Translations under genes and position numbers: made by a program
Notes under the pieces: model-generated
Database searches by the model: none
What the model was told of the DNA's origin: nothing
Seen by the model: only the letters and a program-made list of their open reading frames with translations
In this document: piece after piece, positions 24,490-40,320 of the stretch
How positions within the stretch are numbered: the stretch's first letter is position 1
How the letters are laid out: every line of letters starts with the position of its first letter
Source of the DNA: Saprospiraceae bacterium
GTDB lineage: Bacteria > Bacteroidota > Bacteroidia > Chitinophagales > Saprospiraceae
Direction: 5' to 3'
NCBI GenBank assembly: GCA_022841745.1
Contig: JALHQW010000068.1
Coordinates: forward strand, 1 to 40,491
Length of the DNA stretch: 40,491 nucleotides

Positions 24490-24606
24490 CGGTTGACGGC
24501 TTACGGCCTACGACTTACGGTGGACGGTCTACGATGGACGGCGTTGGGACTATAAATGCTTTCAGCATAAAACTGTTTACCGTGTACCGTAATCCGTCCA
24601 CCGTCC
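24490..24606. repeat. Palindromic repeat region built of acgg/ccgt words
   Basis: Directly after the GWxTD gene the words acggcttacgg and acggtggacggtctacg recur. A complementary copy, accgtaatccgtccaccgtcc (about 24587-24606), follows some 60 bp later, pairing with 24515-24533. There is no T-run directly after, so it is not a clear terminator; it looks like one of the intergenic palindrome families of this genome. Confidence 0.75.
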
Positions 24607-27661: not shown

Positions 27662-27726
27662 AGGTATGGAGGTTTGAGGTATGTAGGTTTGGGCCACATA
27701 CCTTCAAACCTCATACCTCCATACCT
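27662..27726. repeat. Palindromic repeat between ftsL and ftsI
   Basis: The left arm aggtatggaggtttgaggta (from 27662) pairs imperfectly with a right arm ending tcatacctccatacct (to 27726), around the centre gggccacat. Read as RNA it gives a hairpin with about 30-bp arms in the dcw transcript. No T-run follows, so read-through is expected. Confidence 0.88.
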
Positions 27727-33809: not shown

Positions 33810-35150
33810 ATGAAAATAGCCATCCTCGGAGGCGGAGAAAGCGGCACTGGCGCGGCACTTTTGGCCAAGCACCTCGGCCATGAGGTCTTCCTCTCGGACG
33901 GTGGCAGTTTGAAGGAAAATTACAAGGCAGAACTTCTGGATAAAGGCATTCCATACGAGGAAGGCAAACACACATGGACAAGCATATTTGAGGCTGATGA
34001 AATCATCAAAAGCCCCGGCATTCCTGACGACCTCCCCCCACTTTTGGACTTCCGTCGCCAGGGCAAACAGGTGATTTCTGAAATTGAATTTGCGGGCCGT
34101 CACACGGCGGCCACCATTATTGGCATTACGGGGAGTAACGGGAAAACTACCACTACCCGGCTGACCTACCACCTGCTCAAAACAGGTGGCCTGAACGCAG
34201 CCATCGGGGGCAACGTGGGCCTGAGTTTCGCCCGGAACATCATCGAGAACAAGTACGACCACTACGTGCTGGAGCTGAGCAGCTTCCAGTTGGACGGCAT
34301 TGTGACCTTCCGACCGCATATTGCCATTTTGCTCAACATCACACCTGACCATTTGGACAGGTACGAGTACAAAATGGAGAACTACGTGCGCTCGAAGTTT
34401 CGCATCGCCATGAACCAACAGCCAGAGGATTTGCTCATCACCAACGCTGATGACCGTGAGATTCAGGACTACCTGAATGTCAATCAGTTGGCGCCACGAA
34501 GGATTGAGATTTCGACCCATTTTAGCGACAAAAAAATACGCTGGGTGGGCGGCTCGAACCCCCTGATAGGCCGCTGGGAAGGGACATTTGACATGACAAA
34601 TAGCAGGCTGAAAGGCCCGCACAATTTTTTCAACGCAAGCTGCGCCATCCATGCCGCAAAGGCGGTCGGGGTGAGCGACGAGGCGATACAGGAAGGGCTA
34701 AATACTTTCGTGAATGACCCGCACCGCTTGGAATTTGTCGCTGAAATCAACGGTGTTGAATACATCAACGACAGCAAGGCGACCAATGTGGACTCGGTTT
34801 TCTACGCCCTGCAAGCGATGGAAAAACCCGTGGTCTGGATAGCAGGCGGCACAGACAAGGGCAACGATTACAGCCCCATCGAAGACCTCGTCCGGCAGAA
34901 AGTGAAAGCACTCATCTGCCTTGGGGTTGACAACGAAAAACTCATGGGTGTTTTTTCGCCCATTTTGAAAAATATAGAAGAAGCCCGCAGCGCAAAAGAA
35001 GCGGTAGAGCGAGCCACTATTTATGCCAAAAGTGGCGATGTGATGCTGCTCAGTCCAGCGTGTGCGAGCTTCGATTTGTTCAAGAATTACATGGACAGAG
35101 GCGACCAATTCAAAGCCGCTGTTTTTGAAATGATGAATGTTAAATGTTGA
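33810..35150 (+). CDS. murD: UDP-N-acetylmuramoyl-L-alanine:D-glutamate ligase MurD
   Basis: MurD adds D-glutamate to UDP-MurNAc-L-alanine in the cytosol. The 446-residue product has an N-terminal Rossmann-like domain (MKIAILGGGESGTGAA), the ATP loop GITGSNGKTTTTRL (about 107-120), and GGNVG, ELSSFQLDGI and NITPDHLDRY in the central domain. NDSKATN with HRLEF lies before the C-terminal domain, and LLSPACASFDLF near the end. The final residues MMNVKC and the stop are encoded by a repeat arm of the murD-ftsW palindrome. The start lies 45 bp after the small partner gene, so murD is still read with the cluster. Confidence 0.97.
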   Translation: MKIAILGGGESGTGAALLAKHLGHEVFLSDGGSLKENYKAELLDKGIPYEEGKHTWTSIFEADEIIKSPGIPDDLPPLLDFRRQGKQVISEIEFAGRHTAATIIGITGSNGKTTTTRLTYHLLKTGGLNAAIGGNVGLSFARNIIENKYDHYVLELSSFQLDGIVTFRPHIAILLNITPDHLDRYEYKMENYVRSKFRIAMNQQPEDLLITNADDREIQDYLNVNQLAPRRIEISTHFSDKKIRWVGGSNPLIGRWEGTFDMTNSRLKGPHNFFNASCAIHAAKAVGVSDEAIQEGLNTFVNDPHRLEFVAEINGVEYINDSKATNVDSVFYALQAMEKPVVWIAGGTDKGNDYSPIEDLVRQKVKALICLGVDNEKLMGVFSPILKNIEEARSAKEAVERATIYAKSGDVMLLSPACASFDLFKNYMDRGDQFKAAVFEMMNVKC

Positions 35151-35211
35151 ATGATGATTCGGAAATCCGAGCATCATCCATCACCCCCATTCATCATTTA
35201 ACATTCATCAT
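35130..35211. repeat. Palindromic repeat at the murD-ftsW junction
   Basis: The arms atgatgaatgttaaatg (35130-35146) and catttaacattcatcat (35195-35211) are exact inverted 17-bp copies. Related words (cattcatcatttatcatt) continue to about 35220. The left arm forms the last codons of murD. The same word family encodes the GH65 signal peptide core at 6963-7000. Confidence 0.9.
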
Positions 35212-35227
35212 TTATCATTAAAGCATC

Positions 35228-36748
35228 GTGAATTTCGGAGCAAGACTATACGCAGAATTAAGGGGCGACCGGGTCATCTGGATGATACTGGCGGTGCTGT
35301 CCATTTTCAGCATCCTGACGGTATATAGCAGCACCGGCACCATCGCCTACAAGCTCAGTGGTGGCAACACCACGGGCTACTTGATGAAGCACGTCGCCGT
35401 GCTCGGCTTTGGTTTGTTTCTGGCTTATTTGGCCTACCTGACGCCGTATATGCGCTTCATGCGGATGGCGCCTTGGCTCTGGCTGATTGCCTTTGGTTTG
35501 CTCGTTTTCACCCTCGGTTTTGGAAAGGATATCAACCATGCCCGGCGCTGGATTGAAATCCCGTTCATCAACCTGACCTTCCAGACTTCCGATTTTGCGA
35601 AGCTTGCGCTCATACTCCTTGTTTCCCGTGAAATCACCAAGCACAAGGACTATATCAAGGACTTCAGCAAAGCGTTCATGCCCATTATCCTGCCAATTAT
35701 CATCATTTGCGGATTGATTGCGCCTGCCGACTTGAGCACGGCCATCGTGCTGTTCGTTACCTGCTTCGCAATGATGTTTATTGGCCGAGTGGACTTCAAG
35801 TTCATGGCGCTGTTGATACTGATGGCCATCGTTTCGTTCGCCTTTTTGTTGGTCATTCACAAATTTGCACCAGACTTGGTACGGGTGGACACTTGGATTA
35901 GCCGGGTACAAGATTGGATGGGCAGCAGCGAGGGCGGTTTCCAAAACCAACAAGCCAAAATTGCCATCGCAAACGGCGAATGGATTGGTCGTGGCCCCGG
36001 TAATAGCATCCAACGCAACTACCTTCCTACACCTTATGCCGACTTCATTTTCGCCGTTTTCTGCGAAGAGTATGGCCTCTTGGGAAGTTTCTTACTACTT
36101 GGCCTCTATGTCATGCTTTTCTTTCGGGTTACGAGGCTGGTGACCATCTCCGAAAAATCCTTTGGGGCAATGGTGGCCGTTGGCCTTAGCCTCAATATCG
36201 TGATACAGGCATTGGCCAATATGGCCATCTCCGTACACCTAGTACCAGTTGGGGGCTTGACTTTACCAATGGTTTCGTGGGGAGGCACATCGCTTCTTTT
36301 CACCTGCGTTTTCTTCGGCATCATACTTAGTGTGAGCCGCTATATTGAGCAGGCTGCTGCGCAATCGGCACTTGCTACCGCAACGGAGGCACCAACTGCC
36401 CAGGCGGGTGGCGGTGGCCAGCAACAAGTACAAGCTGCTTCGCAACAAGGCGGCGGTGGACAACAAGGTGGCGGTGGCGGACAACAACAGCGCCGTGATG
36501 GGGGTGGCTATCAAGGTGGTGGCGGGCCAAAGCAAGGCGGCGGCGGTGGTGGTCATCAAGGCGGTGGTCAAAACCGAGGTAGTGGCAACTATCAAGGTGG
36601 TGGTCAGAACAGAGGCGGAGGAGGTGGAAACCAAGGTGGCGGCGGAAACTATCAAGGTGGCGGCCAGAACCGTGGCGGTGGCAATCAGGGTGGCGGTGGC
36701 CAAAACAAAGGTAGTGGCGGTGGTCAAGGCGGCGGCCAGCGTAAGTAA
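35228..36748 (+). CDS. ftsW: Septal peptidoglycan polymerase FtsW (SEDS) with a long Gly/Gln/Asn/Arg-rich tail
   Basis: FtsW polymerises lipid II into septal glycan strands together with FtsI. The first 380 or so residues form a 10-helix SEDS core with GGNTTGYLMKH, GKDINHARRWIEI, SDFAKLALI, IAPADLSTAIV and the C-terminal VPVGGLTLPMVSWGGTSLLF signature. The protein then runs on for about 115 residues of low complexity (about 391-506), made mostly of GGG with QQ, NYQ, QNRG and NRGGG words, ending GGQRK. FtsW C-termini face the cytoplasm, so this disordered, basic tail should too. Translation starts at GTG (35228); no suitable ATG exists upstream of the first helix. The tail is in frame with no sign of frameshift. 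Confidence 0.95.
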   Translation: MNFGARLYAELRGDRVIWMILAVLSIFSILTVYSSTGTIAYKLSGGNTTGYLMKHVAVLGFGLFLAYLAYLTPYMRFMRMAPWLWLIAFGLLVFTLGFGKDINHARRWIEIPFINLTFQTSDFAKLALILLVSREITKHKDYIKDFSKAFMPIILPIIIICGLIAPADLSTAIVLFVTCFAMMFIGRVDFKFMALLILMAIVSFAFLLVIHKFAPDLVRVDTWISRVQDWMGSSEGGFQNQQAKIAIANGEWIGRGPGNSIQRNYLPTPYADFIFAVFCEEYGLLGSFLLLGLYVMLFFRVTRLVTISEKSFGAMVAVGLSLNIVIQALANMAISVHLVPVGGLTLPMVSWGGTSLLFTCVFFGIILSVSRYIEQAAAQSALATATEAPTAQAGGGGQQQVQAASQQGGGGQQGGGGGQQQRRDGGGYQGGGGPKQGGGGGGHQGGGQNRGSGNYQGGGQNRGGGGGNQGGGGNYQGGGQNRGGGNQGGGGQNKGSGGGQGGGQRK

Positions 36749-37988: not shown

Positions 37989-39610
37989 ACCTTGGTCAAA
38001 TCAAAAAAATCTACTTCCTCGGCATTGGCGGCATCGGAATGTCGGCCTTGGCCCGGTACTTTTTGATGAAAGGCTGCGAGGTACATGGCTACGATAAAAC
38101 AGAGACGGCCCTCACCAAAAAGTTGGTGAAAGAGGGCATGACGGTTCACTACGGCGGGGCTGATTTGACGAAAATCCCCGCTGGACTTGACTTGGTGGTT
38201 TGGACGCCAGCCATCCCCCGTGATTTTGAAGAGTTGCTGCATTTTCAGAACAGCACGATTCCCTTGAAAAAACGGGCGGAAGTGCTCGGCATCATCAGCC
38301 GGAGCCAGCGCACGATTGCCGTGGCTGGCACCCATGGGAAAACAACGACCTCCTCCCTCGTGACACATTTGTTGCGGGTGGGAGGAGTTCGTTGCACGGC
38401 CTTTTTGGGCGGCATCGCACAGAACCTCAAGTCAAACTATGTAGGTGGCGACAGCGACTGGGTGGTGGCAGAAGCGGACGAATACGACCGCAGTTTCCTG
38501 CACCTCAGCCCCGAAATCGCCGTGCTACTGAGCATGGACCCCGACCATCTTGACATTTATGGCGCCGCCGAAAACGTGGCTGAAACCGGATTCAAGGAAT
38601 TTCTTAAAAAAACAAAGCCAAATGGCAAGGTTTTTATTAAGGATGAACTAACGCAACACTTTGAAAATCAGACTTTTGAAAATTCCAACCGAGTTGCGTA
38701 TTCCACTTTCGGCTTAGGGTCAGGCACTTATCGCTCAGAGAACGTCCGCGTTGAGGACGGCATGTTCGTATTCGACTTCGTAGCTCCGGCCTTTGGCCGG
38801 AGTTGGGAGGCTCTTCCCGTCAAAAGCGGGAGCGGTGAGGGCCGGAGCTACGAGGAGGTACCTTTTGGAAAAATACCTAAATCGTTCATTGAAAGTCAGC
38901 GGAAAGGCTGGGTGGCATTGCCGCCAAAGCCGGATGGCATGGCTTGGACAAGTGAAGAAGTTGACAAATTGTATGAGAGCAACCCAATGGCTTTCAGAGA
39001 GAAAATGGAGTTCATGTACGGTTTGCACTTGTTCAATGAATCGCTTATGAACCTTCGGTTTGCAATGGCAGGTCGGCACAATGTTGAAAATGCCACAGCA
39101 GCAATAGCGGTTGCGTTGACGCTTGGGGTCACCCCAAAAGCCATCCGCAAGGCGCTCATAAGCTTTAAGGGCATCCAGCGGCGGTTTGAGTTCGTCTATC
39201 GGGACGAACAAACGGTGTTCATTGATGACTACGCCCACCACCCGACAGAAATACGGGCGGCGGTGCAGGCGGCACGGGAACTGTTCCCCGGTCGGCACAT
39301 CACGGGCATCTTCCAGCCGCACCTGTACTCCCGCACGAGGGATTTTCAGGACGGCTTCGCAGCGGAACTTGACAAATTGGACGAAATCATCTTGATGGAC
39401 ATCTACCCAGCACGGGAACTCCCCATGCCGGGCGTGACTTCTGAGATTGTTTTTGACAAAATGAAGAACCCGAACCGTTTTTTAGCTACTAAGGCAAACG
39501 TGCTGGAGGTGCTGAAAACGAGGCAGTTGGATGTGGTGATGACGATTGGGGCGGGGGATATTGATACGTTTGTACAGCCAATAAAACTTATGCTGAAAAA
39601 CAGAAAATAA
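37985..39610 (+). CDS. murC: UDP-N-acetylmuramate:L-alanine ligase MurC, enlarged by an insertion
   Basis: MurC adds L-alanine to UDP-MurNAc, the first stem-peptide step. Family motifs are all present: FLGIGGIGMSALARYFL (N-terminal), the ATP loop AGTHGKTTTSSL (about 113-124), EADEYDRSFLHLSP, SMDPDHLDIYG, GRHNVENATAAIA (363-375), DDYAHHPTEIRA and GIFQPHLYSRTRDF. The length is 541 residues against about 455-480 for most MurC. The surplus lies between FDF (263-265) and GRHN (363-366), roughly residues 267-350. Its first part (265-290) is encoded by a 74-bp palindromic DNA element. The frame stays open and downstream motifs are intact, so the enzyme is probably functional. Confidence 0.93.
   Translation: MNLGQIKKIYFLGIGGIGMSALARYFLMKGCEVHGYDKTETALTKKLVKEGMTVHYGGADLTKIPAGLDLVVWTPAIPRDFEELLHFQNSTIPLKKRAEVLGIISRSQRTIAVAGTHGKTTTSSLVTHLLRVGGVRCTAFLGGIAQNLKSNYVGGDSDWVVAEADEYDRSFLHLSPEIAVLLSMDPDHLDIYGAAENVAETGFKEFLKKTKPNGKVFIKDELTQHFENQTFENSNRVAYSTFGLGSGTYRSENVRVEDGMFVFDFVAPAFGRSWEALPVKSGSGEGRSYEEVPFGKIPKSFIESQRKGWVALPPKPDGMAWTSEEVDKLYESNPMAFREKMEFMYGLHLFNESLMNLRFAMAGRHNVENATAAIAVALTLGVTPKAIRKALISFKGIQRRFEFVYRDEQTVFIDDYAHHPTEIRAAVQAARELFPGRHITGIFQPHLYSRTRDFQDGFAAELDKLDEIILMDIYPARELPMPGVTSEIVFDKMKNPNRFLATKANVLEVLKTRQLDVVMTIGAGDIDTFVQPIKLMLKNRK
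38779..38852. repeat. In-frame palindromic element inside murC
   Basis: The outer arms cgtagctccggcc (38779-38791) and ggccggagctacg (38840-38852) are exact inverted copies. Within it ctccggcc-ttt-ggccggag (38784-38802) is itself a perfect hairpin, and tcccg/cggga pair in the centre. The 74 bp give residues VAPAFGRSWEALPVKSGSGE and onward, unlike MurC elsewhere. Confidence 0.9.
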
Positions 39611-39633: not shown

Positions 39634-40320
39634 ATGGCCGACATCATCAAATTCGATTACGAAGGACAAAAGATTTCCTTTGAGTTTGCCGACGGCAATA
39701 AGATGATTAATGCCACTGAAATGGCGAAGCCGTTTGGGAAAAAAGTCAATGATTTTTTGAGACTTCAAAGTACTAGCGAGTACGTTGCACTTTTAGAAAA
39801 CCGATACGGGAATTCCCGTATCGGTTTTCAGAAGGAAGTTTTGAGGGTAGTAAAAGGTGGTGATGCCTACAATACCATCCAAGGCACGTGGATGGACGAA
39901 AAACTGGCCCTGAAATTCGCAGCATGGCTTTCACCAGCCTTTGAACTTTGGGTGTACGACAAGATTCAGGAACTGTTTACAACTGGTAAAACGGAGCTAA
40001 AAGAAGTTCCGACAACTGGCTTCTCTGCTGCCTTGAAACTCATAGCGGAGCAATGGGAAGCCCAAGAGAAAATCAACTCGGAAGTCAGAAAAGAACTTGA
40101 CCAAACGGCAGACAGACTCAACGAACTGGAAGCAAAAATCGTCAGCACGGATGAAAACTATTACACCATTGCTGGCTATTGTGCTTTGAAATCAATTCCT
40201 TGCCCTTTGCATTTGGCAAAGGAATGGGGCAAAAAAGCAGTCGCTTTGAGCGCAGCTCAGAAAGTTGCAACAGGCTCAGCGCATGACGAGCGGTTCGGAA
40301 AAGTAAGGACATATCATTAG
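39634..40320 (+). CDS. KilA-N domain DNA-binding protein inserted in the dcw cluster
   Basis: The 228-residue protein carries a KilA-N domain (about 1-110). NKMINATEMAKPFGKKVNDF opens it, then VVKGGDAYNTIQGTWMDEKL, ALKFAAWLSPAFELWVYDKI follows. A coiled linker comes next (about 135-170, QEKINSEVRKELDQTADRLN), and a C-terminal domain (YYTIAGYCALKSIPCPLHL). KilA-N proteins are common in phages and mobile elements, where they bind DNA; here the target is unknown. It sits between murC and ftsQ, on the same strand, only 23 bp after murC, so it is probably co-transcribed. A 34-bp perfect palindrome lies in its coding sequence (39796-39829). Confidence 0.88.
   Translation: MADIIKFDYEGQKISFEFADGNKMINATEMAKPFGKKVNDFLRLQSTSEYVALLENRYGNSRIGFQKEVLRVVKGGDAYNTIQGTWMDEKLALKFAAWLSPAFELWVYDKIQELFTTGKTELKEVPTTGFSAALKLIAEQWEAQEKINSEVRKELDQTADRLNELEAKIVSTDENYYTIAGYCALKSIPCPLHLAKEWGKKAVALSAAQKVATGSAHDERFGKVRTYH
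39796..39829. repeat. Perfect 34-bp palindrome inside the KilA-N gene
   Basis: The arm gaaaaccgatacggg (39796-39810) is followed by the self-complementary aatt and the exact inverse cccgtatcggttttc (39815-39829). It is in frame and encodes about residues 55-66 (ENRYGNSRIGFQ). It may be an inserted palindromic element or a site bound by the KilA-N protein itself. Confidence 0.95.

Follow-up and report, generated by a model that had tools for sequence, protein, structure and literature searches.

Palindromes within protein genes have been read as selfish DNA that is tolerated by the host. The murC gene of a Saprospiraceae bacterium contains such a palindrome in frame, which raises the questions whether it is one copy of a mobile family and whether the host tolerates or uses it. 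The murC element turns the latter choice into a testable question. We analysed it in the window, i.e. the whole stretch of 40,491 nucleotides, and compared it with genomes of the same genus and family.

The palindrome and the enlarged MurC loop

The original prediction described a palindrome of 74 bp with perfect outer arms of 13 bp, an inner perfect hairpin and no disruption of the murC frame. All of these features are present, and complementarity of the outer arms extends without a mismatch to 14 bp, one more than described (Table 1). The murC frame is open through the element, and its product has its best PDB match in 9ir5, a UDP-N-acetylmuramate--L-alanine ligase (E 8e-75). The inner hairpin, CTCCGGCC-TTT-GGCCGGAG, has a perfect stem of 8 bp and would form in place of part of the long stem. 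It is perfect only in the genome of the window (G000) and its nearest relatives; G010, G009, G003 and G005 have no inner 8-bp hairpin beside GTAG, and their long stem remains.

Table 1. Coordinates of murC and of the features discussed in the text (positions in the window)
Feature	Position	Strand	Description or basis
murC coding sequence, 541 aa	37985..39610	+	Pfam Mur_ligase, Mur_ligase_M, Mur_ligase_C; PDB match
74-bp palindromic element, in-frame insertion in murC	38779..38852	+	encodes about 25 residues (265-289)
Left outer arm	38778..38791	+	GTAG at 38780-38783; strongly conserved across species
REP-like inner hairpin	38784..38802	+	directly after GTAG
Helix P2, short hairpin with GGGA loop	38800..38813	+	fold prediction and pair counting
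Helix P3, hairpin with double changes between species	38814..38832	+	fold prediction and pair counting
Right outer arm	38840..38853	+	perfect complement of left arm
Adjacent non-palindromic insert, 59 aa	38855..39040 (approx.)	+	alignment; G011 is the only other species with it

The sense RNA of the element is predicted to fold at -53.9 kcal/mol, compared with -35.6 +/- 3.4 for dinucleotide shuffles (z -5.3), none of 200 being as stable; the predicted fold of the complement strand has -40.8 kcal/mol (z -4.0). Inverted repeats are not rare in the window, which contains 18 pairs, several of them with longer arms than the murC element. A search of positions 38600-39000 against Rfam 15 gave one match (E 1.7), far below the gathering score and off the element.

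From the strand before the loop to the GRHN motif, MurC of the window has 130 residues. We compared this interval in 44 of 80 retrieved MurC loci; it comprises 47-50 residues in 36 of them. Longer intervals were found in three element-bearing relatives from the genus (76, 85 and 87 residues) and in L083 (104), and the remaining loci outside the range are L085 (55), L150 (53), and L091 and L093 (51 each). The original prediction placed an excess of 70-80 residues at the palindrome. The size of the excess holds (about 80), and its attribution holds in part: in an alignment that also contains 13 congeners and 16 further members of the family, only about 25 residues, or one third, derive from the palindrome, and about 59 come from the neighbouring insert. 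That an in-frame segment was added to an essential enzyme is borne out, since the MurC proteins of the 16 other family genera aligned do not have it. In the MurC of L083 (a Chitinophagales MAG), this region of the protein contains a tandem PSVSGE-like segment.

The 59-aa insert has a pN/pS of 0.30 between G000 and G011. Its pS for this species pair is oddly high, 0.73 versus 0.30 in the rest of murC. Among 60 genomes no homologue was found beyond G011, the other matches listed being weak (E at least 0.11), and searches gave no match in phages or plasmids, no PHROG and no Pfam domain above cut-off. A single 9-residue match in a viral contig we take to be chance.

An AlphaFold2 model of MurC, built with 45 sequences, has a mean pLDDT of 88. 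Residues 272-299 and 301-309, lying between strands 260-266 and 353-359, have pLDDT below 50, and in the remainder of the 59-aa insert, which is helical in part, it is about 54-74 per block (33-74 over the whole insert); few aligned sequences cover the insert, which by itself lowers model confidence there. A structural check for a surface loop had been proposed together with the original prediction, and the model indeed predicts that the palindrome codes for a disordered MurC loop.

Copy number, distribution and likely source

A DNA search of the 8.43-Mb genome of the window returned, besides the element itself, only short weak matches. The 13-nt arm with one mismatch allowed gave eight matches there, of which both exact ones lie in murC; the reversed control gave 28. 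The 13 genus copies were used to build a covariance model, which was searched against the genus, represented by draft genomes (Saprospiraceae MAGs), and 23 genomes outside it. It found the murC site in 13 of the 14 genus genomes and nothing outside murC in these genomes at E <0.2, with first-look filters passing at most 128-150 candidates per genome to scoring. Weak extra matches occurred once each in G012 (E 0.21) and G001 (E 0.35), and the sole match in the outside genomes had E 0.94. No linked transposase was found for the element in the genus.

Within the sensitivity of these filters, the DNA, arm-pattern and covariance-model searches reject a multicopy 74-bp element. The original prediction took it for a copy of a mobile class and named in advance a lack of other genomic copies as the observation that would speak against this; such a lack is what we found, in its own and in the other genus genomes. 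It is therefore highly improbable that the element is an active multicopy palindrome of the Rickettsia kind with murC as one site of many, even though it is palindromic, lies in frame in a housekeeping gene and shares its genome with a different palindrome family that does behave so: no second copy turned up in its own genome, and 13 of 14 genus genomes have it at the identical site. The 74-bp element is not mobile today.

The element is present in murC of 12 of the 13 congeners of G000. Element lengths in the genus are 75, 78 or 81 nt, each a multiple of three. G007 has murC without the element, and G002 retains the segment in a decayed form with little fold. In a MurC tree computed with the insert removed, G007 groups with G012 and core carriers, and the carriers G002, G003, G005, G009 and G010 stand apart from it (support 99-100). 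Since G007 is nested among carriers, the most parsimonious history has a single gain and a single loss, i.e. one old in-frame insertion inherited down the genus, lost in G007 and decayed in G002. Alternatively, the left arm may be native to murC, with the right arm alone added by inverted copying. In the protein alignment the native codons F-D-x-x-x-P coincide with the left arm, but there is little likeness in DNA.

A separate palindrome family has many copies in these genomes. In five congeners a second in-frame insert lies directly 3' of the 74-bp element; in G001, G006, G012 and G013 it is a heptamer palindrome of the form ATTGCGG.../...CCGCAAT, and in G008 a palindrome of similar plan made of other units. 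Matches to the ATTGCGG palindrome (E <=0.001, both strands counted) number 83 in G000, 49 in G012, 68 in G001, 87 in G006, 77 in G008, 60 in G013, 69 in G011 and 16 in G004. Among the nine genomes searched, none was found in G007, which is also the one congener whose murC lacks the element.

Whichever frame of a strand is used, a tandem heptamer is translated as one and the same cycle of seven codons, and ATTGCGG is stop-free in all six frames. This property is permissive rather than special, being present in 8260 of 16380 heptamers, i.e. half of all. We inspected 20 copies in G000, the distinct, best-scoring places among the 83 matches (both strands counted). Twelve of them lie inside open frames of at least 380 codons and are flanked by 60 or more codons on either side. 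Ten of these 12 frames were scanned, and five reach NCBIfam cut-offs: pheT, guaA, mutY, aroB and leuS (own-genome loci L219, L220, L222, L224 and L231). When GuaA, AroB and LeuS are aligned to solved structures, the alignment is gapped or broken where the palindrome lies.

In guaA (L245-L258) an insert is present at one site in G000, G008 and G012 (49 residues), and eight other species have a short form of 29-30 residues; this comparison is without G003 and G005, which were not captured, and G002, which gave no match. The insert carriers do not form a clade in the MurC tree, and the pattern is patchy. Heptamer palindromes that vary in this way between close species provide a system to study how proteins gain segments.

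Judging from these gene sequences, housekeeping genes of this lineage have acquired in-frame palindromes. The proposal that a mobile palindrome class operates here is therefore sustained in part, by the heptamer family lying in frame in housekeeping genes, and fails for the 74-bp element, which is not of that family. In the available part of a description of the Rickettsia palindromic elements (PMC10969869), these are likewise in-frame palindromes in housekeeping genes that are carried in the protein. The heptamer palindrome, with many copies in many host genes, matches that account better than the 74-bp element, and the family appears to be an equivalent of these elements in bacteria other than Rickettsia. 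Compared by description with the same part of that paper, the murC element differs in being unrepeated and about half of the roughly 150 bp given there. It also has GTAG ends, unlike the R. conorii elements with a CGTC end that appear in the accessible text of PMC3733652, where CGTC repeats are mentioned in Bacteroidetes as well. The excerpted account of Beggiatoaceae (PMC4853749) has a TAACTGA heptamer repeat, different from ATTGCGG. In the literature searched we recognised no case of in-frame palindromes in Bacteroidota; a paper on genomic repeats of Porphyromonas gingivalis, also of Bacteroidota (PMC5771137), may bear on this. For murC and palindromic insertion the matches listed contain only work that is unrelated by title, and for palindromic heptanucleotide insertions in Bacteroidetes the search found none. 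Novelty in print is claimed only as far as the literature searched.

The tags of the element point to another relative. In the window GTAG is found at both outer ends; over the genus the 5' tag is GTAG in 11 of 13 copies and GCAG in two, and the 3' tag is CTAC in eight of 13. In the accessible part of Di Nocera et al. 2013 (PMC3733652), intragenic GTAG REPs are mostly dimers or groups and encode 20-30 aa. The murC element has in common with the GTAG REP dimers of that text the outward GTAG at both ends, the adjoining stem, the dimer length, G-T pairs in the stem and the in-frame location encoding 20-30 aa. A hairpin in the 6-13 bp range of these REPs directly adjoins the tag only in G000 and its nearest relatives, with 8 bp. 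The murC element differs from GTAG REPs in being single-copy, with no dispersed family or linked RAYT found in the genus, and so fails a defining REP feature, high copy number, in spite of fitting the dimer plan. Its covarying pairs across a genus and its constrained silent sites are likewise features that the accessible text does not mention. On this comparison of architectures, its closest counterpart is a GTAG-tagged REP dimer rather than a Rickettsia element.

A second covariance model with 31 pairs was run over 398 family genomes, with up to 11 candidates scored per genome. At E <=0.1 it matched 19 genomes: 13 of the genus, four of g85, G060 and G397. The best match in g85 has an E of 5.9e-6 per genome. 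The g85 palindromes (G372, G190, G347 and G252) resemble the murC element in starting with (C)GTAGCTC...GGC, in the mirror-image end and in the two-ended plan; unlike it, they occur several times per genome and differ in inner sequence. They are dispersed, with 22 matches in G372, 6 in G190, 7 in G347 and 2 in G252 (both strands counted), and the four inspected matches of the model lie outside ORFs of >100 aa or at an ORF edge. Their architecture is that of the head-to-head GTAG REP dimer of Di Nocera et al. The putative link between the murC element and the g85 repeats consists of this common plan and the short GTAGCTC..GGC. The single weak matches in G060 and G397, which belong to unrelated genera, do not have the GTAG-dimer plan on inspection, and a g85 repeat match in G004 looks like chance.

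Matches to Y1_Tnp were found in 16 of 18 genomes examined, and G000 has nine such matches. Of 16 Y1 transposase loci scanned, four have GTAG hairpins, none with the sequence of the murC element. In G012 (L194, about 430-490 and 985-1080) GTAG-tagged hairpins occur on both sides of a Y1 transposase gene. Those on one side form a head-to-head dimer with the plan of the murC element and a different sequence; used as a query, this dimer has copies only in G012, one of the 14 genus genomes.

Apparent constraint on the RNA fold

Pair counting over the aligned copies found 88.6% of 403 cells paired, whereas slid controls gave 37-47%. Both sides have changed in 13 of the 31 pairs, in 33 cells altogether. 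On four of five pair measures, including the covariation score, none of 500 shuffles was as high; for the fifth, the number of pair types, 147 were. Since the relatedness of the sequences may inflate this shuffle control for covariation, further tests were added.

In 12 of 13 species the native sequence folds better than random synonymous recodings of the same peptide, with z of -2.5 to -6.6 and 0 to 14 of 1000 recodings as stable. The exception is G002, with z -0.47 and 297 of 1000. Across 12 species, three of the element's four four-fold sites do not vary, compared with 3 of 89 elsewhere in murC (hypergeometric about 6e-4, calculated by hand). L023, an incomplete murC at a contig end, was excluded from this four-fold test and included in the arm alignment, recoding and pair counting.

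Substitution rates were compared for nine of the 12 other carriers (G013, G002 and G005 were left out). Eight of the nine have a lower pS within the element than over the remainder of murC. The reduction is strong for G011, G004, G006, G008, G010, G009 and G003, e.g. 0.05 inside versus 0.30 in the rest for G011, 0 versus 0.39 for G006 and 0.28 versus 0.75 for G003; pS is slightly lower for G012 (0.43 versus 0.51) and not lower for G001 (0.44 versus 0.40). Conversely, pN is higher in the element in eight of nine comparisons (0.07 versus 0.04 for G011, 0.41 versus 0.23 for G003), with G006 as the exception (0.04 versus 0.05).

These rates bear on the possibility that selection acts on the protein, with a loop VAPx.GRSWEA..GRSYE functional in MurC and the palindrome incidental. 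Some residues are well kept, with V/A-A-P shared by all 13 carriers and S-W-E-A by 10 of them, yet the combination of raised pN with lowered pS, the poorer folding of recodings that encode the same peptides and the predicted disorder of the segment make this explanation improbable.

The complementary changes could in principle arise with no selection at all. Template-switch correction of quasi-palindromes is a known mutational process that keeps arms complementary, and it would yield double changes. It would explain complementarity within a genome but is not expected to preserve likeness between species at silent sites, where the element has three of four four-fold sites invariant and the murC-wide four-fold difference between species reaches 0.71. 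Nor is an excess of G-U over A-C pairs expected from a process at the DNA level. We consider this alternative unlikely, if somewhat less so than a functional peptide.

The kinds of mismatch and the strand that folds better speak to a DNA-level site, such as a protein-bound cruciform. A perfect palindrome detected once per genome with strongly conserved arms would suit such a site. In 12 of 13 species, however, the fold of the mRNA strand is stronger than that of the complement, and the pair cells comprise 218 Watson-Crick, 26 G-U, 5 A-C and 24 other, the G-U excess being 8 to 3 if distinct column types are counted. A site of this kind is about as improbable as selection for the peptide. Taken together, the silent-site, recoding, strand and G-U tests argue for an RNA structure in the message over a peptide or a DNA site, and selection appears to hold the fold of the element while its amino acids drift.

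Proposed origin of the element and other features of the window

The reading that we favour, with a probability of about 0.6, is a single in-frame insertion of REP-dimer type that is now kept as an RNA structure in murC. A GTAG-tagged palindrome of this type would have inserted once, in the ancestor of the genus, into the loop that joins the two final strands ahead of the GRHN motif. Its source may have been a RAYT-type REP dimer, because g85 has dispersed GTAG dimers built to the same plan, and one also flanks the Y1 transposase gene in G012. The element would now be kept for its fold within the murC message, and we speculate that the hairpin most likely acts by slowing ribosomes or by protecting or processing the mur transcript. 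It is not indispensable, since G002 has little fold and G007 is viable without it. The murC insert seems to have outlived its family, and its base pairs and silent sites, unlike its peptide, appear constrained. We give an even chance to a broader picture, in which a captured mobile palindrome has been domesticated as an mRNA structure in an essential enzyme, with fold and silent sites kept genus-wide and the peptide drifting as a disordered loop, in a lineage that has other in-frame palindromes, of the heptamer kind, in pheT, guaA, aroB, leuS, mutY and murC.

Several other features of the window were observed. An ORF with a KilA-N domain (39634-40320; PF04383, E 2e-20) directly follows murC and contains a perfect 34-bp palindrome at 39796-39829. 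At 35128-35213 there is a 26-bp inverted repeat, 96% complementary and built of short repeated units, which overlaps the last codons and the stop of ORF 33810-35150, presumably murD-like. ORF 35228-36748, which we take to be FtsW/RodA-like, ends in a long Gly/Gln-rich tail (about 36380-36745). Two palindromes of short near-repeats, at 24517-24604 and 27662-27726, resemble the heptamer family in plan and have another sequence.
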